A stretch of 20,844 nt of DNA, from positions 1-20,844 of the IMG/VR virus record IMGVR_UViG_3300025818_000242, one strand, 5' to 3'. Below the pieces are notes generated by a model. The model did not search any database. It had not been told where the DNA came from and was given only the letters and a program-made list of their open reading frames with translations. This document shows positions 9,529-20,704 of the stretch, piece by piece. The stretch is from a virus. How positions within the stretch are numbered: position 1 is the first letter of the stretch; the number at the start of each line of letters is the position of its first letter. The translations under genes and the position numbers were made by a program.

Positions 9529-10034
9529 TGCTTCAATTACTTGCCCTTTTGTTTGGTGGTGGCAGTGCAGCCGCCGGAACTGCGGCGACTGTCGCTGCGG
9601 TAGCTGGACTTGCTGGTTCTGCCGTTTCAGCGGCTGGTCAAATTAAAGCTGGTCAAGCAGCCGGAGAAGAGTCGCGTATAAACGCCAAGGCTCTTGAAGC
9701 TGAGAAGACGATGAATGCAGCGGTAGCCAAGCAGAACATGAACCGCAGGATTGCGGACTATCAACAGAATATGTCCGCAAATATTGCCCAGTTTTCTATT
9801 GGCGCTGGCCGCGCTGATAAATCCGTCGAGGCTTTTATGAAAGCCCAGAAGGAAACTCTTGGCAAAGACATTAAGGCAATTCAGACGCAGGGCTATCTAC
9901 AGCAACAGGCGGATACAGTCGCAGTTGCTTCTGAGAAAGCTAGAGGGAAAGGCGCTATGACTGCCGCTCGTATTGGCGCAGCTACTACGCTTCTTAGCGG
10001 CGTCAACAATTACTATACAACAAAGGGCGACTAA
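9528..10034 (+). CDS. Internal virion protein, T7 gp14-like
   Basis: This is a small ejection protein expected to leave the head first and form the pore in the outer membrane. The 168-residue product is close to T7 gp14 (196). It has a hydrophobic, Ala/Gly-rich N-terminal third (LLALLFGGGSAAAGTAATVA, residues 4-23, then AVAGLAGSAVSAAGQIKAGQ, 24-43) and a long helical, Gln/Ala/Lys-rich remainder (AVAKQNMNRRIADYQQNMSA, then SIGAGRADKSVEAFMKAQKE). Hydrophobic start, helical body and position after the nozzle gene fit gp14 well, although sequence identity to T7 is low. It overlaps the nozzle gene by TGATG and ends two bases before the next ATG. Confidence 0.8.
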   Translation: MLQLLALLFGGGSAAAGTAATVAAVAGLAGSAVSAAGQIKAGQAAGEESRINAKALEAEKTMNAAVAKQNMNRRIADYQQNMSANIAQFSIGAGRADKSVEAFMKAQKETLGKDIKAIQTQGYLQQQADTVAVASEKARGKGAMTAARIGAATTLLSGVNNYYTTKGD

Positions 10035-10036
10035 TA

Positions 10037-13000
10037 ATGGCAGTCATTCGTGAGCAACGTCAGTTTGGTGTAAGCCCAGTTCGAGTCGTGAGGGCCGATA
10101 CTGGTGGTCAACTTATTGGGCAGGCGATGGCTCAAGCTGGCGAAACATTCTCTGACATTATGTTCAAGCGGGCTGCGGTCCAAGCCGAGAAGGCTGGCAA
10201 AGAAGCTGCTTTGTCCATTGAATCTGAGAAGGTTGTTACCTTTGATCCCATTACGCAAAAACCTGTCGCATACACACCGCCAAAACCTTTTGGCACTATT
10301 GCAGCCGAAGCGTATCAGAATGTAATCAATCAGCGGTTCAATCAAGAGATTGAGTTTGACATTAAATTGAGGGCATCAGAGCTTGCCTCTCAGTTCCAAA
10401 ACAGTCCGAATGGTTCCGAGCTTTATAAGCAGGCAATGGATGATTACGTCAACCAGCTAAAAGAAAATGCTGGCGGTATGTATGGCGAGTATATCTCTGG
10501 TGTCGGCACTGATTACACAGAGATGACCTATCTTAATCTCAAAGAAAATGAGAAGGCTAGAGCTAGAGCGCAGCAAATAGCTGCAATGGAAGACAATAAC
10601 CTTGATGTAATTTCTCAGGTTCAAGCCGCTGCCGCTCAAGTTGGCGCACAACAAGCGGCAGAAATGTTTCCCGAAACCGCTTTGTCTTTGGGTGCTGCTT
10701 CCGGACTTTTGGATAGTTCTGCCGACAATCGGTTTCGTAAAGCATATAGAATCGCACTAGTTAGAGGCGATGCTGAATATATTTTCAATCAAGCAGTTAA
10801 TAGCGGAAAATATACTCAAGAGGAGCTTCAGTTAAATCGTGCAGCCATTAGCACTAGCAGTGGGTCTTCACGAATTACCATTCCAGAGCTTAAGCAGTTA
10901 CTTGCCCCGTTCAGTTCTAACTATAGTGACTGGTCTGAAATTACAGGCCCGCTTCTCGACACGTTCAACAACTTAATCGTTGAGAGAACGAATCGCATTC
11001 AGCTTGAGAATTTGTCCGTTGTGCCTCGTATCCCAACTGGTTGGACGGATTTTGGACTTAATTCTTCTGGTTCCTTTACTGATCCTGCAGCTTCGATTGG
11101 AACGGTGACTGAAGCGGCCCGAAACTGGAACGCTATTAGCACTGCAAAACCTGACCTTTGGCAGCTAGAGTCTGCTGAATATCAAGAAAAGCTTAAAGCC
11201 GCAGAAAGAAATTACCGTGAAGCTATTGCCACTTCTATTGATGCTTACATGGCAACATTGCCAGCCGGAACTGATGGCATTGAAGAAATTGTAAAACTTC
11301 AGAGCGCCATTCGAATGGGCGGTCGAGGTAAAGAAGATTTAAGTGAAGCATCGCGCACATTGCTTTCTCAAATGGAAGCAGTTGATGGCACTACTGGACT
11401 AGAAGAATTTGAAAGCAGTCTCATTTCTGCGCTTGATGCTTCTAAAAGTCTTGTGGCGCAACAAGAGGAAATTGACAACATTAGGGCCGCTCAAGCTGAA
11501 GAAGCTAAACAACTTGAGTTTGGTAATGAGTATACGGCCTCTGTAGACCTTGTTGCGCCCTCTATCCAAACCTCTTTGGATACAGAGCTTATCATTGAGG
11601 CTCTGAGAACCGAGAATACAGAAAAACTACCAGATCAATTTAAGAAATTCGTAGAAGATATTATTAACCTCGGGCAAAAATCTGAGTCTGATGAATATAT
11701 CAATCGTGCGGATGAATACGTTAATTCCCTTCGGACAATCTTTAAAGTTCGTGAGGGGCGCGAAGAAGACGCTGAAAATCTTGCTGTTGCACAAACTCAA
11801 GCTAAGAATAGAAACCTATCCAGAACTATTGTTCAAGAAAGTCGAGCAGAAATTTTTAATGCAAACTCTATTGAAGAAGTTGAGGCTCTTAGGAAGTCTG
11901 CTATTGATCAACTTGACTCTCTCCTTGAGGGTGAAGAAGACAATGCGTTCATCATAGGTCTTAAAAACAGAATCGAAGACGTTACTGCTGAAGTTTATGT
12001 GCGGAGCATACTGACTACGGCTGACAGTCGCGCAGATTTTATGACCCTCATGTATGCACTTGGGGGTGATGAAAAGGCGCTAGAAACTCTTAAGGATGAT
12101 CCAAGGCTAGAGCAAATCAAACAGGCCAGAACGTATGGCAGTGCCGATACGGACTCATACTCCAGTAACCTTAATCGCATTTCTAGCGATCTTCTAGAGC
12201 AAGCCAATGCTGTTGAAGCTCAGCTTGAATTCCAGCGAAACTCTAACAGAATCCTTAGTGGCTTTGGCAATCCAACAAACCCAGAAGACCAGAGGATTGC
12301 GGAGTTGGTTCTTGGACCCAACTTTCTCGACAGATTGATTGCTGGTCGTATCAGCCCAGAGGAACTTAATGCTGCTCGCAATGCACCTCCCACTAGTCTG
12401 ATAAACTCTTTTAATACAATTCAGAATCAACCGATTGAGCGTCAACTTGAGCTTCTTAATGCCTATTCTCAGTTTGGCTTTATTGAGAGCAGGGGCCAGC
12501 TAATTCAATCTAGGGCTTCTACCGCCATAGACTCTAGTGCTGTATCTTACATGGATAGCTTGCAACAATTCCTTGAGTCAACCGGTGCAACAACTCAACA
12601 AGATAGGTTAATCTACGCAGAACAATTTAGGCAAGTTAGAACTCCGGAAGTGGTTGAGAAGGTAAACAGCTATTTCCAGAAATTTCCACCCAATGTTGAT
12701 GGGGAACAATACAGCAGTGTCAATGATTTCCTTAACTTTCGTTTCTACGAGCATGGACTGAATGACAGAACCATGCAGTATATACGCGACAGGTTTTATA
12801 TGGATGCCGCTGCCAAGCAAAATACTGGAGACTACCTTGATTTAAAAACTTGGGCAGAGGGTATTGATAGATATATCAATAGAGACTTATCTTATGATCC
12901 CCGCGTTTGGGATGGCGGCATTTGGCCCGCTGATTTTGATATTTCTCAACTTTCTACCAGAGCGGTTGAAGCTCCTTTTGCCGCTACGGGCGGAGTTGGA

Positions 13001-13723
13001 ATGGGTTCGGTAGTTACGAGTGCTACTGCTCGCGAAAATTTAAATCGTCAGCAATGGGCCAAAACAGAATTTGGCCTTGTGAAGACACTTGGTGGAGAGG
13101 AGCAGGCCGCTCTATTTGAGCAGTATGTAACTCAAACTGTTGGTCACAATAATTGGATTCTTGAACCCGCCTCAACTGTGTCTCTGGATGGCGGCGTTGT
13201 TTATCAAGTCCTTGATGTTACTAGCGGTGTGCCTAATCCAGCAATAGCGCAATCTGGCGGACGGAATGAGCCGGAACCTATCTTTGAGCCTATCTATGTT
13301 TCAACAAGAGATTCAACATTCCTTGGGGCAAAAGTTGCTGCTGAAAAAGCTGTTATTGCTGCCAACATGGAAGAAGCAGAAGCAAGGTTGAGTGCGCCAG
13401 TAACTTCACAAGATCAGAATATTATCGAAAGAACTATCAAAGGCGTTGGCGCTCTCTTTGGTGGCCGTTCTCGCTCAGATCAGGCGCTGTCTGATTCAAT
13501 CAGCGATTTTGGTAATACATTCTCTAGCCAAATCGAAACTCTTGGTGTGGGCGATGCATCGATCCGAAAAGGCTTGATCTCTGGTGGCATTGGTTCTTTG
13601 GATAGATTTAAAACCAGACTTGAAACAGCTTTGGCAACTACCCCGCCGGAAACTCCACGTTATAACGAAATTCAAAATTTTCTTGGAAAAATCCAAGAGA
13701 TAAACGAACTTCACGGAAGGTGA
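10037..13723 (+). CDS. Large internal virion (ejection) protein 1, gp15-like by position
   Basis: This 1228-residue, mostly helical protein starts MAVIREQRQFGVSPVRVVRA. By order it corresponds to T7 gp15 (747 residues) but is far longer. Long Ala/Glu/Gln/Arg-rich helical stretches fill most of the length (for example KAAERNYREAIATSIDAYMA, ARAQQIAAMEDNNLDVISQV, LEEFESSLISALDASKSLVA). A more compact region follows near the end (WILEPASTVSLDGGVVYQVL), with another helical tail (VAAEKAVIAANMEEAEARLS). I see no soluble lytic transglycosylase motif, protease motif or membrane segment. In T7 the gp15/gp16 pair forms the periplasmic tube for DNA entry, and a similar job is inferred. Codon choice is visibly more A/T-rich than in the capsid gene. 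AAAGGG precedes the ATG. Confidence 0.75.
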   Translation: MAVIREQRQFGVSPVRVVRADTGGQLIGQAMAQAGETFSDIMFKRAAVQAEKAGKEAALSIESEKVVTFDPITQKPVAYTPPKPFGTIAAEAYQNVINQRFNQEIEFDIKLRASELASQFQNSPNGSELYKQAMDDYVNQLKENAGGMYGEYISGVGTDYTEMTYLNLKENEKARARAQQIAAMEDNNLDVISQVQAAAAQVGAQQAAEMFPETALSLGAASGLLDSSADNRFRKAYRIALVRGDAEYIFNQAVNSGKYTQEELQLNRAAISTSSGSSRITIPELKQLLAPFSSNYSDWSEITGPLLDTFNNLIVERTNRIQLENLSVVPRIPTGWTDFGLNSSGSFTDPAASIGTVTEAARNWNAISTAKPDLWQLESAEYQEKLKAAERNYREAIATSIDAYMATLPAGTDGIEEIVKLQSAIRMGGRGKEDLSEASRTLLSQMEAVDGTTGLEEFESSLISALDASKSLVAQQEEIDNIRAAQAEEAKQLEFGNEYTASVDLVAPSIQTSLDTELIIEALRTENTEKLPDQFKKFVEDIINLGQKSESDEYINRADEYVNSLRTIFKVREGREEDAENLAVAQTQAKNRNLSRTIVQESRAEIFNANSIEEVEALRKSAIDQLDSLLEGEEDNAFIIGLKNRIEDVTAEVYVRSILTTADSRADFMTLMYALGGDEKALETLKDDPRLEQIKQARTYGSADTDSYSSNLNRISSDLLEQANAVEAQLEFQRNSNRILSGFGNPTNPEDQRIAELVLGPNFLDRLIAGRISPEELNAARNAPPTSLINSFNTIQNQPIERQLELLNAYSQFGFIESRGQLIQSRASTAIDSSAVSYMDSLQQFLESTGATTQQDRLIYAEQFRQVRTPEVVEKVNSYFQKFPPNVDGEQYSSVNDFLNFRFYEHGLNDRTMQYIRDRFYMDAAAKQNTGDYLDLKTWAEGIDRYINRDLSYDPRVWDGGIWPADFDISQLSTRAVEAPFAATGGVGMGSVVTSATARENLNRQQWAKTEFGLVKTLGGEEQAALFEQYVTQTVGHNNWILEPASTVSLDGGVVYQVLDVTSGVPNPAIAQSGGRNEPEPIFEPIYVSTRDSTFLGAKVAAEKAVIAANMEEAEARLSAPVTSQDQNIIERTIKGVGALFGGRSRSDQALSDSISDFGNTFSSQIETLGVGDASIRKGLISGGIGSLDRFKTRLETALATTPPETPRYNEIQNFLGKIQEINELHGR

Positions 13724-13727
13724 GTAA

Positions 13728-16700
13728 ATGCCAATTGATCGTAGCCAGTTTGTTCTTGGCAACTTTTCTGGGGTCAGGCGCGGGCCGATTGAGAAGCCAG
13801 CGTTTTCTGAAACCGTTGGTGCAACGATTGGTTACACATACGATCCCGCCTATGAGTTTGTTCGCAATAGGATAATCTATGGCAATGTTCGCCAGAAGGA
13901 TTACAACCCTATGGCCGACATGGAGGGCTACGAGCAATACGCAGTTCACTTAACCCGTGCGGTAAGTCCAGAGCATATGATTGATCTGAAGCGCGGGATT
14001 GATGAATCTGCTAAACGTAGACAGGTTCTTGCAAGCTCTTCGCTTTCGGCTCAGTTCTTTGCGGGCCTGTTTGATCCAATAAATTTGGTTGCATTGCCTT
14101 TGGGTGGTCCTACTGTTGGCGCTCTCCGTTCTGCCGCTCGCGTTGGGGTGGGCGTGGGCGTGTTGCAGGCTGGCACTGAGCTTGCCATGATTCAACCTTT
14201 CGATCCACTACAGACCGCCAAAGAAAGCGCGATGAATATTGCTTCTGCTACATTGTTCGGTGGTGCGCTTGGTGGCGTTGCGAGCATTCCCATTTCTCGT
14301 AGAGCTAGAGCGTTAACCGCTTTTGAAGAAAACTTGGCAGGAACACTTGAGTTTACTCAGAGGATGGAATTGTTCCGGACTCTTACTCCGGAAGACCTCA
14401 CTACTCTTAATCAACCGCAAACCAGAATACTTGGCAATGTCAGTGAGAATCAATTATGGCTTGATCGGACAAAAGCTTTCGACGAAATAGATCAACTGAG
14501 GCGATCTTCTGCTGTGGCTGCAAAGTTAGCTTCTATCGATCAGATTGAAGTTAAAACAACATATATCAATTCAATAGAAAAAGAGATAGCTCTCAGGGTG
14601 CTCGAGAAAGGGGGATACAATAAGGAAAACGCTTTAGACTTTGCTATCAATGCTTTCATAGATAGCCCTTTTTATAAGACCCTAAGCACTCCGTTCAAAA
14701 GAATTATTCAATCCCCCAAAACTCCAGCAAAGGTAAAAGAATATACTATCAGACTTGCTGGCGACAGCGCACTGAACCATGCCTACAGTGCTGTCCTTGG
14801 TGTGCCTTCTACTCAATCCGTTTATTTAAGGGCGCAGATGCGTAGGGGTGAAGTTGCTGCGGCCTACGACAACCTTCATCAAATATATAGAGAAGAATAT
14901 GGCTTAAAGGATACACGTTTCCTTGACATCGATCTTATGAATACTGCAAGGAAAGCATTTGATTATGATAATTCTTTTGAAGGTTTTATGCGGAGGATAA
15001 GCGAAAAGCGAGTTAAGAAACTTCCCTTCTCAGCCTCAGAGGCTAAAGCGGCCAAGGTTATTGATGATTTCTTTAAGAAGGCAGAGCGAGAGCTATACGA
15101 TATGGGCATGATTGGCCTTACTGGTCGATTGAAGAAACAACTCGAAAGTATTGAGTCCGCAATCTTTAACCTTGAAGACGAGGCCAAGTCTATACGTGAT
15201 GCTTTGGGTAAGAACGCAGCGGGCGATCCTGAGTATCAGCGTATCGTAAGCGAGCTTGGTCGCCTGAATTCAAATAGAGGTAACATTGAAAGAGACTTGG
15301 GTATGGCCCTTAATGCCCCGCCTACTTTAACTGAGAATTGGACTCCTCGGTTTTATGACAAGAGAGCAATAAAAAAGAATATGGCAGATGTTGTTCGAAT
15401 CTTTGAGGACCATTACCGCGCCAATCCGGAAGTGTGGGACCTCAAAGATGGGCAGTGGGTTAAGGAAATTCTTCCGACCGATCCTGTCTCTATAAATAAA
15501 AGAGCAAAGGATACTGTTGCAGCCATCTTGGAGGAAGATGATCTTGTCTCTGTTGTTGGCGGAACCAGCCGCAAGAAACACTTCAACGGAAGGATTGACA
15601 TCGAAACCGAAAAGGTTTGGGACTACATCATTAAAGACCCCATTAACATTATGCGGGCATACTCTGCTCGCATCTCTCCGACAGTAGAGTTTAATAAAGC
15701 ATTCGGTGGCCGCAGCATTCAGAAAGTTAGTCGTGAGCTTCGTGAAGAGCTTGCTCTTGCTGGCGTTAAAGAAGGCGAAGCCAACAGGATTATGTCAGAC
15801 TTTCTGCATCTATATGATTCCATTGCTGGCATTGTCATGAAGGAACCGGATCGATGGGATAACAAGATTGCTTTTGGTTTGAGAAAACTTGCTGAAACCA
15901 ACTACATGGGTTCGGCTTGGCTGTCTGCATTTCCTGATACCGCTAGGATTATTGCGGAACATGATCTTGGCAATATGGCTAAAGCTATCAACCTTCTGCT
16001 TGATAAAAACATGAGGCCGATGCTCAAAAAGGACGCCAGACTATCCGGTGAAGCTCTTGATTATTTCCATAATTCTGTGGGCTTAAGGCTCATGGAAGAC
16101 CTTATGAATGACCCATCAACGCAAACCATTTGGGATACTGCTACTAGCGGGTTTTATGTTCTAAACGGACTAACACCCATGACGCAGGCCCTCAAGGTAT
16201 TGGACGGTATTGTCACTGGTCATGAAATTATTGACACCGCTATAAAATACACCGAGGGCAAGGCGACAGATCAAGACCTAACCAAGATGCTGCGCTACGG
16301 AATTTCCGTAGACCAGATGGAAAAGATTGCCAAATCTCCTTGGATTAAAACTAAAAATGGTATGTATATACCGAACACCACACACTGGGAGGGTCATATA
16401 TCTATACCAGACTTTGATGCTATTGGTTACAAGGTTGTCGAGATTGACAACTTTGGATCACCCCGTGTTGGTGTAATGTATAAGGGCGAATATAAACCTA
16501 TTGCTATCGACCTTAATAAGAAAACTTTTAGGTTTGATCGTGAGTATATTGAAAGCGCAGAGTTTGATGGACAGGTTTGGTTCTATGAGAACCAAATGAT
16601 TCAAGGCCGAACTGTCTTCCCAAAAGATGCCTTCGCTACACCGAAGGATTGGGCAAACTTTAGAATGATTAGAGCGGCTGAAGAAATCAAATTGGGAGGA

Positions 16701-17498
16701 AAGGTTGTTGGCCCACTATCTGTTGCTCAAGAAAATGCTTTGGACAGAGCGGCTTGGAATAGGCTTAAGAAAGCCAGCAAGATTACGCAAGAAACTGTCG
16801 ATACATTCAGAACTGCTCTTGGCAATTCCATCTTCAACACTGTAATGGCCGCAACTCCAGCGGATAAGCCAATGGCTACGTCCGGTCGCTTCCGCATTCC
16901 TTATAAGATTGCAAAGCAGTTTGGTTTTAAAGAAGACCCAATGCACGAAGGATATAGCATTATCCAAAGCCAATTTCTTGGACTGCCATTCCAGTTCTAC
17001 AATTTTGCCCTAGCAAATGCGAACAAGACGATTGCTGCGTTTGGTCACGGTCAACTAAAGAACCAACTATTTGCAACATCAATGGCTCTTTCGCTTGGCT
17101 ATATGTCCACAAAGCTGAGAACCCCAGAGTTTGCTTGGGAAGAAATGGACTACGCTGATAGGTTTGCCCGCGCATTTGATGCAAGTGGTCTTCTTTCTAT
17201 ATATAGCGGTCTGTTCTACACTGGGCTGCATACATCTCTTGCCCTTGGCGGGCCTAATATTTCCGGTGGCGTTATCAATCCAAAGTTTCCCGTTGTGCCA
17301 GATAAGGTCAGAGGCGCTGTTGGACTCATGGGTGCTGGTCCGTCCATTGGATTTGATCTTGGGGCTGGCGCTTATGAGTTAATGTTTGGCGATAACAGGG
17401 GCGAAGGCGCAAAGCAGATATTCAGGAATCTTCCATATGCTCGATTGTGGTTCTGGAAAGATCAGATGAACGCAATGACTAGAGCTTGGGGATTGTAG
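13728..17498 (+). CDS. Large internal virion (ejection) protein 2, gp16-like by position
   Basis: This 1256-residue protein has a clean GGAAGG (13715-13720) seven bases before its ATG. T7 gp16 is 1318 residues. Residues about 108-187 form a hydrophobic and Gly/Ala-rich block (FFAGLFDPINLVALPLGGPT, GVGVGVLQAGTELAMIQPFD, ASATLFGGALGGVASIPISR) that could enter the membrane. The middle is helical and charged. The C-terminal part has further Gly/aromatic-rich hydrophobic stretches (FGHGQLKNQLFATSMALSLG, LLSIYSGLFYTGLHTSLALG) and ends with FRNLPYARLWFWKDQMNAMT, an ending I recall in other phage DNA-injection proteins. T7 gp16 carries a transglycosylase at its N-terminus; here no such motif (ES...GLMQ type) is visible. 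Membrane insertion during DNA entry is the likely role. Confidence 0.75.
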   Translation: MPIDRSQFVLGNFSGVRRGPIEKPAFSETVGATIGYTYDPAYEFVRNRIIYGNVRQKDYNPMADMEGYEQYAVHLTRAVSPEHMIDLKRGIDESAKRRQVLASSSLSAQFFAGLFDPINLVALPLGGPTVGALRSAARVGVGVGVLQAGTELAMIQPFDPLQTAKESAMNIASATLFGGALGGVASIPISRRARALTAFEENLAGTLEFTQRMELFRTLTPEDLTTLNQPQTRILGNVSENQLWLDRTKAFDEIDQLRRSSAVAAKLASIDQIEVKTTYINSIEKEIALRVLEKGGYNKENALDFAINAFIDSPFYKTLSTPFKRIIQSPKTPAKVKEYTIRLAGDSALNHAYSAVLGVPSTQSVYLRAQMRRGEVAAAYDNLHQIYREEYGLKDTRFLDIDLMNTARKAFDYDNSFEGFMRRISEKRVKKLPFSASEAKAAKVIDDFFKKAERELYDMGMIGLTGRLKKQLESIESAIFNLEDEAKSIRDALGKNAAGDPEYQRIVSELGRLNSNRGNIERDLGMALNAPPTLTENWTPRFYDKRAIKKNMADVVRIFEDHYRANPEVWDLKDGQWVKEILPTDPVSINKRAKDTVAAILEEDDLVSVVGGTSRKKHFNGRIDIETEKVWDYIIKDPINIMRAYSARISPTVEFNKAFGGRSIQKVSRELREELALAGVKEGEANRIMSDFLHLYDSIAGIVMKEPDRWDNKIAFGLRKLAETNYMGSAWLSAFPDTARIIAEHDLGNMAKAINLLLDKNMRPMLKKDARLSGEALDYFHNSVGLRLMEDLMNDPSTQTIWDTATSGFYVLNGLTPMTQALKVLDGIVTGHEIIDTAIKYTEGKATDQDLTKMLRYGISVDQMEKIAKSPWIKTKNGMYIPNTTHWEGHISIPDFDAIGYKVVEIDNFGSPRVGVMYKGEYKPIAIDLNKKTFRFDREYIESAEFDGQVWFYENQMIQGRTVFPKDAFATPKDWANFRMIRAAEEIKLGGKVVGPLSVAQENALDRAAWNRLKKASKITQETVDTFRTALGNSIFNTVMAATPADKPMATSGRFRIPYKIAKQFGFKEDPMHEGYSIIQSQFLGLPFQFYNFALANANKTIAAFGHGQLKNQLFATSMALSLGYMSTKLRTPEFAWEEMDYADRFARAFDASGLLSIYSGLFYTGLHTSLALGGPNISGGVINPKFPVVPDKVRGAVGLMGAGPSIGFDLGAGAYELMFGDNRGEGAKQIFRNLPYARLWFWKDQMNAMTRAWGL

Positions 17499-17511
17499 TT
17501 TGTCATAGTGC

Positions 17512-17545
17512 TTTTGTGCGTTGAGTTCACTGCCTCTTCTATGCA
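17512..17545 (+). promoter_or_regulatory. Candidate promoter before the tail fibre gene
   Basis: The 74-base gap before the fibre gene holds TTTTGTGCGTTG (17512-17523) and, 13 bases on, TTCTATGC (17537-17544), the same pair as at 2404-2435. As a sigma70 site the spacing (20) would be long, so a phage-type promoter or a regulatory site is equally possible. CTATG (17539-17543) and CATAG (17549-17553) also form a 5-bp inverted repeat. T7 has a strong promoter at the same place, before gene 17. Confidence 0.4.
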
Positions 17546-17572
17546 ATTCATAGACGAAACAGAGGGCATAGC

Positions 17573-19948
17573 ATGACCATTAACGCGGCAGACAACTCAC
17601 CACGCATTGAGTATGCGGTAGCGCAGGGCGTCACTCAGACGACCTTCTCGGTTCCGTTTGAGTTCTTTGACACTGGTGATCTAAACGTCTACGTTGATGG
17701 CGTCCTCAAGGTCGAAGGCTCTGACTACACTGTCACTGGCGGCGAGGGATCGACTGGTTCGATCATCTTTGTTGACGCTGATCCGGGTGAAGTGCAGCAA
17801 GTCACTGGTGCCACTGGCGGAAGCCAAGTTGTCATTACCCGTGACATTCCCATTGAGCGCACGACTGATTTCAATGCTGGCTCTGACATCAATCGCGCCG
17901 CACTGAACGAGCAACTCGACACGATCATTGCCCTCATTGCTGACGTTGACGACAAGGCCAGCCGCGCCATTCAGATTCCTGACTATGAGGTTGCGCCAAG
18001 CCTGTCTCTGGCTGACATCAATGACCGCAAGGGTAAAGTTCTTGCCTTCAATGCAACGACTGGCGCTGTTGGTGTTGGTCCTACGTCCTATGACATCGGC
18101 GTTATTGCTGACAACATTGCAGCTATTCTTGATGCCGACGATCAGGCTGCTGCCGCTGCTGCAAGTGCTGCTGCCGCCGCCTCTAGTGAGTCTCACGCTG
18201 CATCCTCTGAGGGTGCTGCTGCATCCTCTGCCTCTGCTGCTGCAACGTCTGAAACAAATGCTGCTTCTTCAGCTTCGAGCGCATCTGGGTCAGCCACTGC
18301 CGCTGCCTCTAGCGCCTCTGGTGCTGCCGATTCCGCTACTGCTGCCGCTTCTTCTGCCTCTGCCGCTGCGTCTTCTGCGTCTGCCGCATCCACCTCTGCA
18401 AGCAATGCTGCTGCCTCTGAGGCTGCTGCTGCTGCATCGTATGATAACTTCGATGACAGATACTTGGGTGCCAAGTCTTCCGACCCGACGACTGATAACG
18501 ATGGCGATGCTCTTGTAACTGGCGCTTTGTATTTCAACACCACCTCCGAAGACATGAAGGTATGGAGCGGTTCTGTCTGGAAGACAGCTTATGTCTCTCT
18601 GGCTGGTGCTTTGATTGCTGCAAATAACCTGTCAGACCTTGCGGATGCTGCTGCCGCAAGAACTAACCTCGGCCTCGGCTCTGCCGCCACCGCAGACAGC
18701 ACTGACTATGCGGCTGCGTCTCACACGCACACCTTGTCTCAGATCACTGACGCTGGGACTGCCGCTGCTGCCGCTACTTCCGACTTTGCCACGGCAGCAC
18801 AGGGTGCATTGGCTGACAGTGCAGTGCAGCCCAATGACAGCCCCACCTTCGGCAGCATCACTGTCACTGGCACAGTAGATGGCCGTGACGTTGCCGCTGA
18901 TGGCACTAAGCTGGACGGCATTGAAGCAGGTGCGGACGTAACGGATACGGCCAACGTCACTGCCGCTGGTGCGCTGATGGACAGCGAGCTAACCAATATC
19001 ACAGCGGTCAAGGCCCTGAACCAAGGCGTTGCAACGACTGACAGCCCAGCGTTTGCTGGCCTCACTGTTAATGGTCAGGGAGTTGCGACTGGAGATCAAA
19101 GTGTAGCCACGACTGACAGCCCAGCGTTTGCTGGTCTCACTGTTAATGGTCAGGTCGGTCTTTCTGGTGCCAACTACGGCACATCCGGTCAGGTGCTTGC
19201 CAGTAATGGCACTGGCTCTGCGCCGAGTTGGCAGGATGCGAGTAGCGGTGGTCCGCTTAATGTTCAGCAATTCACAAGCTCTGGCACTTGGACGAAGCCA
19301 TCCCAACCAAGCACCTCCGTAGTAAAAGTCCAAGTATGGGGCGCAGGCGGTGGTGGAGGAGAGGATTCCACATCATCCGATGGCGGCGGTGGCGGCGGTG
19401 GAGGCTATAACGAGCTTTGGACCACGCTAGGCAATCTTAGCTCTACTGTAAGTGTTACTATCGGAGCGGGAGGGGCTGGTGGAACTGCTGGTGGAAACGG
19501 CGGGAATAGCTACTTTGGAACCTATCTTGGCGCATCAGGCGGAGACGGCGGTGAATACAATGGGGCAGCAGGCGGCTCTGGCGGCGGTCCAATGGTTTAC
19601 AACTCTGAGTGGTCTGTCTGGAGAGTAATCCACAGTAACAGTGACGGCATCAACACCGATATGGGAATTTTCAGAGGCGGCGGCGGAGGCTATGATGTTT
19701 CCGTATCTACAAGAAGCGGCGGAAACGCTGTCTGGGGCGGCGGCGGTGGCGGCTTAAGCAATATTCTTTCCTCAAGAAAATACGGCGTTAGCGTGAACGC
19801 TGGCCGAGGTGGAACTGGCTCTAATACTGGAAACGCTGAGAATGGGCAGTTTCCGGCTGGCGGTGGTGGCGGCGCTGATAGCGACACCGGAAGTGCTGGG
19901 AATGGCGCTAACGGTTATGTTGTTGTTACTGTATATGCGGGGGCTTAG
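17573..19948 (+). CDS. Tail fibre protein: T7 gp17-like anchor, Ala/Ser-rich coil, poly-glycine tip
   Basis: This is the receptor-binding fibre, 791 residues, with AGAGGG six bases before its ATG. Residues 1-150 are the T7 gp17-type anchor (RIEYAVAQGVTQTTFSVPFE, VYVDGVLKVEGSDYTV, VVITRDIPIERTTDFNAGSD, INRAALNEQLDTIIALIADV), which attaches to the tail. Residues 191-289 are almost only Ala and Ser, a likely trimeric coiled coil or extended stalk. Residues 290-560 hold common fibre modules (DDRYLGAKSSDPTTDNDGDA, HTHTLSQITDAG, ADGTKLDGIEAGADVTDTAN) and a 25-residue duplication at about 486-527. Residues 567-791 begin FTSSGTWTKP and VKVQVWGAGGGGG, with at least seven long glycine runs, matching glycine-rich adhesin tips. 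No chaperone or peptidase domain is seen at the C-terminus. Confidence 0.9.
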   Translation: MTINAADNSPRIEYAVAQGVTQTTFSVPFEFFDTGDLNVYVDGVLKVEGSDYTVTGGEGSTGSIIFVDADPGEVQQVTGATGGSQVVITRDIPIERTTDFNAGSDINRAALNEQLDTIIALIADVDDKASRAIQIPDYEVAPSLSLADINDRKGKVLAFNATTGAVGVGPTSYDIGVIADNIAAILDADDQAAAAAASAAAAASSESHAASSEGAAASSASAAATSETNAASSASSASGSATAAASSASGAADSATAAASSASAAASSASAASTSASNAAASEAAAAASYDNFDDRYLGAKSSDPTTDNDGDALVTGALYFNTTSEDMKVWSGSVWKTAYVSLAGALIAANNLSDLADAAAARTNLGLGSAATADSTDYAAASHTHTLSQITDAGTAAAAATSDFATAAQGALADSAVQPNDSPTFGSITVTGTVDGRDVAADGTKLDGIEAGADVTDTANVTAAGALMDSELTNITAVKALNQGVATTDSPAFAGLTVNGQGVATGDQSVATTDSPAFAGLTVNGQVGLSGANYGTSGQVLASNGTGSAPSWQDASSGGPLNVQQFTSSGTWTKPSQPSTSVVKVQVWGAGGGGGEDSTSSDGGGGGGGGYNELWTTLGNLSSTVSVTIGAGGAGGTAGGNGGNSYFGTYLGASGGDGGEYNGAAGGSGGGPMVYNSEWSVWRVIHSNSDGINTDMGIFRGGGGGYDVSVSTRSGGNAVWGGGGGGLSNILSSRKYGVSVNAGRGGTGSNTGNAENGQFPAGGGGGADSDTGSAGNGANGYVVVTVYAGA
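18143..18439 (+). repeat. Low-complexity Ala/Ser codon tract in the fibre gene
   Basis: About 99 codons are nearly all GCN and TCN/AGC, giving an irregular GCTGCTGCCTCT-like repeat. It encodes the stalk at residues 191-289. Such tracts tend to gain or lose units by slippage or recombination. It also produces long open frames on both strands that are not genes. Confidence 0.8.
19034..19154 (+). repeat. In-frame direct repeat in the fibre gene (two 46-base copies, 75 bases apart)
   Basis: Bases 19034-19079 and 19109-19154 are identical except for one C/T difference (19060 versus 19135). The offset of 75 bases is exactly 25 codons, so the protein repeats VATTDSPAFAGLTVNGQ without a frame change. 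The near identity, including silent positions, points to a recent duplication. Confidence 0.9.
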
Positions 19949-19950
19949 TA

Positions 19951-20319
19951 ATGAAGAAGTTTCAAGTCGTTGACAACATTGTGGTCAACTCCATCACTGT
20001 TGATACAGACAACATTCCAGACTGGTGCGTAGACTGGCCTTCGGACGAAGACTTCCCGAGCCTTGGAATTCATGACGAGCTTGTTAATGATGCGTGGGTC
20101 AACAAGACACAGCGACCAGCGTATATGGAGCCGTTAGTTCGGAGGAGAAGGGATGACCTTCTTCTTGAGCTTGACAATATTGTTTCTAATCCTCTGCGAT
20201 GGTCGCAAACTTCACCAGAAAAGCAAGCAGAGTGGACCACCTACCGCCAAGCCCTTCTTGACATTCCACAGCAAGCTGGATTCCCGACCGACATCACTTG
20301 GCCGACAAAACCGGAGTAG
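19951..20319 (+). CDS. Tail fibre assembly/chaperone-like protein
   Basis: This 122-residue protein lies directly after the fibre gene, with a GGGGG run (19939-19943) as a ribosome site. Its N-terminus is a small strand-rich part (FQVVDNIVVNSITVDTDNIP). The C-terminal half has the pattern RRRRDDLLLELDNI, then WSQTSPEKQAEWTTYRQALL, DIPQQAGFP and ITWPTKP. That last pattern (helix with Arg/Asp, W..YRQALLDIP, then a WP ending) is typical of phage tail assembly chaperones and fibre assembly proteins. By family and position it probably helps the fibre fold or trimerise, or is a minor tail part. T7 has no such gene next to gene 17. I am sure of the family type more than of the exact role. Confidence 0.7.
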   Translation: MKKFQVVDNIVVNSITVDTDNIPDWCVDWPSDEDFPSLGIHDELVNDAWVNKTQRPAYMEPLVRRRRDDLLLELDNIVSNPLRWSQTSPEKQAEWTTYRQALLDIPQQAGFPTDITWPTKPE

Positions 20320-20325
20320 CCTCGC

Positions 20326-20466
20326 ATGGACCAGAAGGCCGTCATCTCAGTGCTGTTCGCAGCGATCATGGGGTTGATCGGCTGGAACATCAAGACTACC
20401 AACGAACTCCAACTGCGAGTGCAGCGGTTGGAGATCATCCTTCTAAACGATGCTTTTATCAAGTGA
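20326..20466 (+). CDS. Small one-pass membrane protein (46 residues), lysis module
   Basis: ATG at 20326 follows a GGAG (20313-20316) set in the end of the previous gene. The product has a short MDQK start, a hydrophobic helix AVISVLFAAIMGLIGW (residues 5-20) and a helical, heptad-like tail (NELQLRVQRLEIILLNDAFI). The layout (one membrane helix, then a short coil) fits a small holin, an antiholin or a membrane partner of the next protein. It lies seven bases before the ATG of another single-pass protein and close to the amidase gene, so a lysis role is a fair inference. I do not recognise a named family. Confidence 0.65.
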   Translation: MDQKAVISVLFAAIMGLIGWNIKTTNELQLRVQRLEIILLNDAFIK

Positions 20467-20473
20467 GGGCGAC

Positions 20474-20704
20474 ATGGAACTGATCAAGACATTTTGGCCG
20501 ATCATTCTCGGGTTTATCGGCGCTATCGTGTGGCTCATTCGTCTGGAAGCTCGTTCGATAGAAAACGAGAAAGAGATCAAGCGTTTATGGTTGCAGCGTA
20601 AGGAAGATTTGGAAATGTCTCGTCAGGCCCGTGAGGACACGAACAAAATGCTCACTGAAATCCGCGACGACATCAAAGCTCTCATAGCAAGGGTGGGCAA
20701 ATGA
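20474..20704 (+). CDS. Small one-pass membrane protein with coiled-coil tail (76 residues), holin or spanin-like candidate
   Basis: I chose ATG 20474, which follows a GAGG (20465-20468); the in-frame ATG at 20450 would add eight residues inside the previous gene and has a poorer site. The product has an N-terminal membrane helix FWPIILGFIGAIVWLI (residues 7-22) followed by about 50 charged residues likely to form a coiled coil (RSIENEKEIKRLWLQRKEDL, then ARED TNKMLTEIRDDIKALI). This is the shape of single-pass phage holins and of inner-membrane spanins, although it is short for a spanin and no lipoprotein partner is seen. Its stop overlaps the amidase ATG (ATGA), which ties it to cell lysis. 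Confidence 0.7.
   Translation: MELIKTFWPIILGFIGAIVWLIRLEARSIENEKEIKRLWLQRKEDLEMSRQAREDTNKMLTEIRDDIKALIARVGK

Follow-up and report, generated by a model that had tools for sequence, protein, structure and literature searches.

A glycine-rich fibre tip and its putative chaperone in an exchanged cassette of a marine podovirus-type phage

The fibre gene and its exchange between sibling viruses

The window (the whole stretch of DNA analysed here, 20,844 bases) is IMG/VR virus record IMGVR_UViG_3300025818_000242 and carries a podovirus-type late region. Its open reading frames (ORFs) matched terminase large subunits, portal (PF12236), capsid (PF19821), nozzle (PF25675) and an internal virion protein; the 1,256-aa ORF just before the fibre gene matched phrog_342 (internal virion protein). 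Judged on the portal protein, the nearest isolate is Pelagibacter phage EXVC031P Hodr (66%). The tail fibre gene is an ORF of 791 aa on the plus strand (17573-19948), and PHROG tail-fibre families cover its residues 169-789. Downstream lie the gene for a 122-aa tail-fibre chaperone (19951-20319, plus strand), an ORF of 84 aa (20450-20704) and an amidase gene.

The initial annotation gave the fibre a T7 gp17 anchor. Fibre residues 1-166 (17573-18070, plus strand), which are common to sibling phages (97% aa identity), do bear a weak resemblance to the gp17 N-terminal domain (hhalign probability 23%), but membership in the corresponding Pfam family did not hold up. The window anchor (17573-18082) scored 12.9 bits against PF03906, for which the cut-off is 25.2, and the anchors of four relatives scored 12.5 to 16.2 bits, so that all five anchors tested fell below the cut-off. 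These scores suggest that the five anchors form a divergent branch of the PF03906 anchor. Farther along, a shaft segment (residues 291-451; 18443-18925, plus strand) is 64% identical to roseophage SIO1 and Siovirus, and parts of it are common to other marine phages. With residues 1-166 shared with the siblings and residues 291-451 with SIO1, the fibre is a mosaic.

Two siblings were available for comparison, IMGVR_UViG_3300031565_000430 (L002) and 3300031566_000210 (L003), whose fibre genes differ from each other at 12 nt. They were 93.3% identical to the window over 13054-18069, and farther upstream the aligned stretches were 87-93% identical, with two short gaps. This similarity breaks off at about fibre codon 166, and the rest of the sibling fibre aligned with the window fibre no better than shuffled sequence. 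In L002 the match resumes at 20697 (89% over 148 bases), within the amidase gene; the L003 contig ends earlier. The cassette that is wholly unlike the siblings spans 18071-20696 (plus strand; the right edge is taken from L002 alone) and comprises the rest of the fibre, the chaperone and nearly all of the ORF at 20450-20704. The modular exchange that had been proposed for this fibre is thus seen directly. The sibling fibre is 663 aa long and contains YadA-head repeats, with a collagen match below the cut-off. The L002 cassette also encodes a protein of 143 aa, which in its N-terminal part matches phrog_4998 rather than the clamp families described below.

The N-terminal part of the 84-aa product of the ORF at 20450-20704 is hydrophobic, and the protein weakly matches phrog_462 ("lipoprotein"). 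It lies within the exchanged cassette and possibly has a role in lysis, because the amidase gene comes next.

Family, predicted fold and conservation of the glycine-rich tip

The fibre ends in a TNF-like plus glycine-rich tip (residues 562-791; 19256-19945, plus strand), supported by Pfam, an AlphaFold2 model and fold matches. Its glycine-rich part, 19271-19948, encodes residues 567-791 plus the stop codon and begins FTSSGTWTKP...VVKVQVWGAGGGGG. Glycine makes up 31% of residues 567-791 and 9% of residues 1-566, the latter containing no run of three. We counted six glycine runs of three or more in the tip, starting at residues 592, 604, 670, 702, 722 and 763, rather than the "at least seven" first reported; with pairs included there are 15. 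The number of runs was rejected as evidence by itself: in 2,000 shuffles of the same composition the mean was 4.4, and 470 reached six, so that the tip has no excess. The longest run, of eight, was rare in the shuffles (17/2,000). The signal of the tip is its glycine composition together with its family match, not the number of runs.

As for that family, the comparison with known glycine-rich domains returned PF21722 (Gly_rich_2) at an E value of 7.6e-15 (56 bits, above the curated cut-off of 24.3) along positions 2-226 of 226. PF21722 was likewise matched at E <= 0.01 by 32 of the 34 related tips in our alignment, and no other Pfam family was found for the window tip. A tblastn search of phages with the tip gave no match, and a family search of its own record gave 0 candidates; we attribute both blanks to low-complexity filtering. 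The related-locus search with the tip gave one relative only, and a DNA pattern for VWGAGGGG was used instead; the tips listed among its matches are a lower-bound sample. For the HMM searches for tips the bias filter was switched off, and shuffled sequences served as a control.

Glycine-rich tips also occur in other arrangements. In L080, whose fibre anchor is 61% identical to that of the window, PF21722 was found in a separate, unfused protein of 289 aa (9607-10473; 8.6e-25), the product of the third gene after the fibre, with an ORF for a 484-aa protein next. L021 (134-3368) carries tandem tips: a fibre ending in a glycine tip, then a stand-alone tip of 262 aa.

The AlphaFold2 monomer model of the tip (pLDDT 83.1, pTM 0.83) contained a folded glycine region that matched solved glycine-rich tips. 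Foldseek ranked Bxb1 (3.2e-9, TM 0.58) and Pam3 (1.9e-5, TM 0.56) first. With VIA-align, the model aligned end to end with Bxb1 gp33 (PDB 9d93; Z 19.9, 2.5 A over 184 residues, 37% identity) and Pam3 gp24 (PDB 7ypx, 7yfw; Z 17.8, 2.7 A over 179 residues, 30% identity), followed by ALK/LTK ectodomains at Z 6.9-8.2 over 122-127 residues. A phmmer search of the PDB with the tip alone returned nothing at E up to 10. The profile of 34 tips recovered Bxb1 gp33 (1.6e-12), Pam3 gp24 (2.2e-10 and 2.5e-10 for two entries) and RemZ (2.3e-6), and after these FtsZ chains alone, at 0.17 and worse. Salmonella phage S16 gp38, to which the initial annotation had compared the tip, was not the nearest structure: its chain was absent from both the phmmer and the profile results at E up to 10, and its structure (6F45) was not among the fold matches listed by Foldseek or VIA-align. 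Among predicted viral structures, 264 tip matches passed E 0.001, and of the 50 listed many bear the name "glycine-rich domain-containing protein"; the fold is thus widespread among phages. The tip is a fresh case within an already described fold and family.

In Pam3, the TNF-like domain extends into twelve glycine-rich motifs arranged in four stacked layers with variable distal ends; the backbone angles of these motifs are near those of a beta-sheet, and the tip has been compared with S16 gp38 (PMC9608196). Given those angles, "poly-glycine II" is possibly the wrong term for this branch.

To compare glycines with the remaining residues at the codon level, we drew 31 disjoint pairs of relatives, 55-97% identical, from 119 distinct tips; the window tip is not among the paired tips. 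Amino-acid change affected 42/682 aligned codons in glycine runs of three or more (0.062), 117/1,511 codons of other glycines (0.077) and 1,201/4,797 codons of the remaining residues, which include framework strands (0.250). Per-codon change was thus three to four times lower at glycines. Synonymous change at unchanged residues was not lower at glycines (0.47 in runs and 0.41 at other glycines, against 0.32 elsewhere), glycine being fourfold degenerate, which raises its synonymous figure. In the 34-tip alignment, the mean identity to the window was 0.69 at run glycines and 0.18 at non-glycines, although such an alignment favours glycine matching. As judged from the codons, the low change at glycines shows purifying selection on them, not positive selection on the loops. 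The original proposal, a fibre tip whose glycine-rich scaffold carries variable loops, was right in kind: the tip belongs to PF21722, the model is folded, and non-glycine residues vary more than glycines in both comparisons.

One stretch stands out in the model. The pLDDT fell below 50 at model residues 114-124 and 126-135, corresponding to fibre residues 675-696 (19595-19660, plus strand). This segment lies inside the longest glycine-poor stretch of the tip and is poorly conserved and often missing in relatives. We regard it as a candidate receptor-contact loop.

The two-domain chaperone and its linkage to glycine-rich tips

The assembly-type protein noted behind the fibre is a PF16778 chaperone. 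Residues 63-122 matched PF16778 (Phage_tail_APC) at 1.4e-15 (57.3 bits, above the cut-off of 26.6), and this C-terminal helical domain (20137-20316, plus strand) also matched 2kz6 by fold (Z 7.2). The monomer model (pLDDT 91.1, pTM 0.61) consisted of a small beta domain and then helices, with strands at residues 2-7, 10-16, 42-45 and 48-51 and helices at 56-78, 81-86 and 89-103. The N-terminal beta domain (N-domain; residues 1-56, 19951-20118, plus strand) aligned with residues 4-60 of Pam3 gp25 (7ypx_a) at Z 5.8 (2.5 A over 53 residues), which is below the tool's caution level of 8. Among the 50 fold matches listed for the chaperone, only the gp25 alignment starts before residue 44. Foldseek placed gp25 second, weakly (E 0.19, TM 0.24 over the whole chain), and a profile of 20 N-domains placed it first of three in the PDB, also weakly (E 0.041; the next was 0.23). 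The Pam3 gp24-gp25 pair has been solved by cryo-EM, and gp25 resembles TfaMu (PMC9608196). The part of gp25 that resembles the N-domain embraces the tip, and this likeness, with the linkage described below, is the basis on which we propose the N-domain as a tip clamp. The helical C-domains of the two chaperones may belong to different families, because a PF16778-rich profile (A4) did not list gp25 in its results.

A search of IMG/VR with the whole chaperone, which matched mostly the PF16778 part, gave 73 loci. One (L077) was dropped for want of a chaperone ORF start, and 68 of the 72 tested had an upstream ORF. A glycine tip lay directly upstream in 7/68 loci (5/41 clusters at 90%). Since phmmer with the window's own N-domain found two ORFs only among 6,051, a profile was needed for the N-domain. 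It recovered 15 ORFs at E <= 1, and 12 of them came straight after a recognised tip. The three remaining were L005, with too little upstream DNA, and L055 and L166, both at contig starts, whose scant upstream sequence looks like the last part of a glycine tip; L055 was still scored as "no tip" in the 7/68.

When IMG/VR was searched with the N-domain, a glycine tip was found directly upstream in every locus with enough upstream sequence. The first search gave 14 loci, 13 of which had DNA upstream (L204 has 99 bases); the count was 13/13 (11 clusters). The second, which took the best 80 of 100 confirmed relatives from 212 pattern matches, gave 79 loci, 77 of them with an upstream ORF (L223 and L287 had none), and the count was 77/77 (44 clusters at 90%, 26 at 60%). 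Cluster counts are given because near-duplicates were frequent. The queries came mostly from loci beside glycine tips, so that some matches are the queries themselves (L204, L207; L216, L218, L240, L244, L246, L259), and further matches are contigs already in the sample (at least L219, L228, L258 and L022). The same arrangement was seen in 4/4 N-domain relatives found on GTDB genome contigs and in 2/2 isolates, Escherichia phage Goslar and Synechococcus phage S-CBS4. The gap between the last sense codon of the tip and the N-domain ORF was 0 to 29 nt.

Because the bias filter was off in the tip searches, the 96 upstream tips from these N-domain searches were each compared with 20 shuffles of themselves; all 96 scored above every shuffle, with and without the null2 correction. 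Under ordinary Pfam settings, 46 of 61 representative upstream tips matched PF21722 at E <= 0.001 and 15 did not; the tip upstream in L206 scored 0.074. The reverse linkage is loose: among the pattern-scan matches listed that had enough downstream DNA, an N-domain lay behind 13/71 glycine tips (10/38 clusters). The rule is therefore one-way and holds for recognisable relatives of the N-domain only.

Relatives of the N-domain matched phrog_22737 and phrog_14370. The window N-domain matched neither directly, the link running through relatives such as L213 (1.9e-4). The Goslar protein matched the tail-fibre assembly family phrog_188 along its length. Members of phrog_188 adjoin other kinds of tip too. 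From the Goslar match and the likeness of gp25 to TfaMu, the wider superfamily of the N-domain is probably not glycine-specific.

What follows the N-domain varied. Classed by simple motifs, 93 IMG/VR loci from the two scans comprised 46 with a PF16778-like domain, 17 with a short "PTKEELL" helix, 7 of an "ADPLFF" type, 16 others, 6 with nothing more (51-62 aa) and 1 truncated where the contig ends. For ten loci of short or unusual type, no relative of the C-domain (profile A4) turned up in the roughly 600 bases downstream. With one protein of 48 aa from a genome contig, the N-domain-only partners directly behind glycine tips range from 48 to 62 aa (L202, L203, L264, L278, L281, L290 and L297). 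Such partners are not predicted by the Pam3 model, in which trimerisation runs through the C-domain. L207 (1041-3569) has two glycine tips, each followed by its own N-domain partner. The N-domain of about 50 residues is probably a tip-specific clamp. That it is a dedicated clamp for TNF-like/glycine-rich tips, sufficient alone as a minimal chaperone and with an optional, freely exchanged C-terminal domain, we hold to be an even bet. We found no report in the open-licence literature of the pairing of N-domain and glycine tip or of N-domain-only partners.

A putative host-recognition cassette and its known counterparts

We consider it likely that the locus serves as an exchangeable cassette by which a marine podovirus-type phage recognises its host. 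In it, a glycine tip that presents its loops to the receptor would be paired with a chaperone that grips the tip through the N-domain. The fibre would be attached by its N-terminus and would continue through an Ala-rich, repeat-bearing shaft to the TNF-like/glycine-rich tip at its end, where glycine strands would stack as a lattice and hold the variable loops outward. During folding and trimerisation the N-terminal beta domain of the chaperone would grip the flank of the tip; the helical C-domain, where present, would hold the chaperone together, joining three grips. The chaperone would then be released, and the finished trimer would show its variable loops to the host. For the trimer, the lattice geometry, the clamp action and the release, our model follows Pam3. 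By analogy, the loops may attach to a receptor on the cell surface, possibly LPS or another glycan. The LPS suggestion comes only from work on Klebsiella phage mutants that infect an LPS-altered host, in which a homology model placed the changes in such a domain and for which the authors want further validation (PMC12671077).

The glycine domain could instead be a structural cap or folding domain, with receptor binding seated in the shaft or in another protein. For a prophage protein of C. difficile that carries a Pfam glycine-rich domain at its N-terminus, the C-terminus is reported to be sufficient for binding (PMC9615553), and the best structural match to our tip, from Bxb1, is named "tail wing brush" and not receptor-binding protein. 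We nevertheless think this unlikely, since the tip is distal and C-terminal and is exchanged as a unit between siblings, and the Klebsiella phage mutations were put, subject to the validation mentioned, in a homologous domain. Slightly less likely again is that the N-domain follows glycine tips merely as an adjacent segment rarely split off by recombination, with no functional pairing. It is indeed the segment nearest the tip, the C-domain lying farther off; however, the linkage held in every case across three collections and many fibre backgrounds (13/13, 77/77, 4/4 and 2/2), the C-domain, which begins only a few dozen codons later, varies in type or is absent, and the search with the whole chaperone yielded mostly other tips.

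There is very little to commend the view that the fibre acquired its tip by fusion from a T-even-like phage, as a true S16-type gp38 adhesin made of a beta-helix and a poly-glycine II sandwich. The two are alike in design, with variable loops on a scaffold of glycines, and Pam3 gp24 resembles 6F45 over 52 C-alpha atoms (PMC9608196). Against this, neither phmmer nor the 34-tip profile listed the gp38 chain at E up to 10, Gly_rich_2 is the sole Pfam family found for the tip, the model runs end to end with Bxb1 gp33 and Pam3 gp24, and gp38 forms a tip as a protein of its own, with a beta-helix domain (PMC12892980).

Under our preferred reading, that of an exchangeable recognition cassette, a solved fold is tied to such a cassette in uncultured marine phages. 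The rule that a recognisable N-domain has a glycine tip upstream points to a function for small proteins so far without an assigned role, and fibre-chaperone pairs could be matched by sequence alone. With the N-domain-only proteins, the part that trimerisation plays in the chaperone can be tested directly.

Among known systems, Bxb1 gp33 is the best match in both fold and sequence; it is a separate tail-tip protein of a mycobacterial phage, and we found no papers on the Bxb1 wing and glycine, or on Phage_tail_APC, in the open-licence literature. The gp38 proteins of S16 and PP01 also carry variable receptor loops on a glycine scaffold, but as a separate protein on the gp37 trimer with a beta-helix instead of the TNF-like part (PMC12892980), whereas the glycine domain of the window is fused as the C-terminal part of the fibre ORF. 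The TNF-like and glycine-rich ectodomains of ALK/LTK share the arrangement; these are animal receptor kinases, and their Z level may reflect only that common arrangement and not common descent. Alteromonas phages A5 and V22 have a fibre with a cognate chaperone as a module common to distant marine phages, so that such sharing is already published; theirs differs in having knob and head domains, and the main text of that report does not use the word "glycine" (PMC10579305). Pam3 gp24 shares the predicted fold and the sequence family of the tip, and the cognate chaperone gene lies directly downstream, as does that of the window, which starts 2 nt past the fibre stop; gp25, like the window chaperone, has an N-terminal beta domain and a helical C-domain. 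Unlike the fibre described here, gp24 alone makes up a short fibre (residues 31-280 modelled) on a myovirus baseplate (PMC9608196); in the window, the tip is the last part of a long-shafted fibre of 791 aa.
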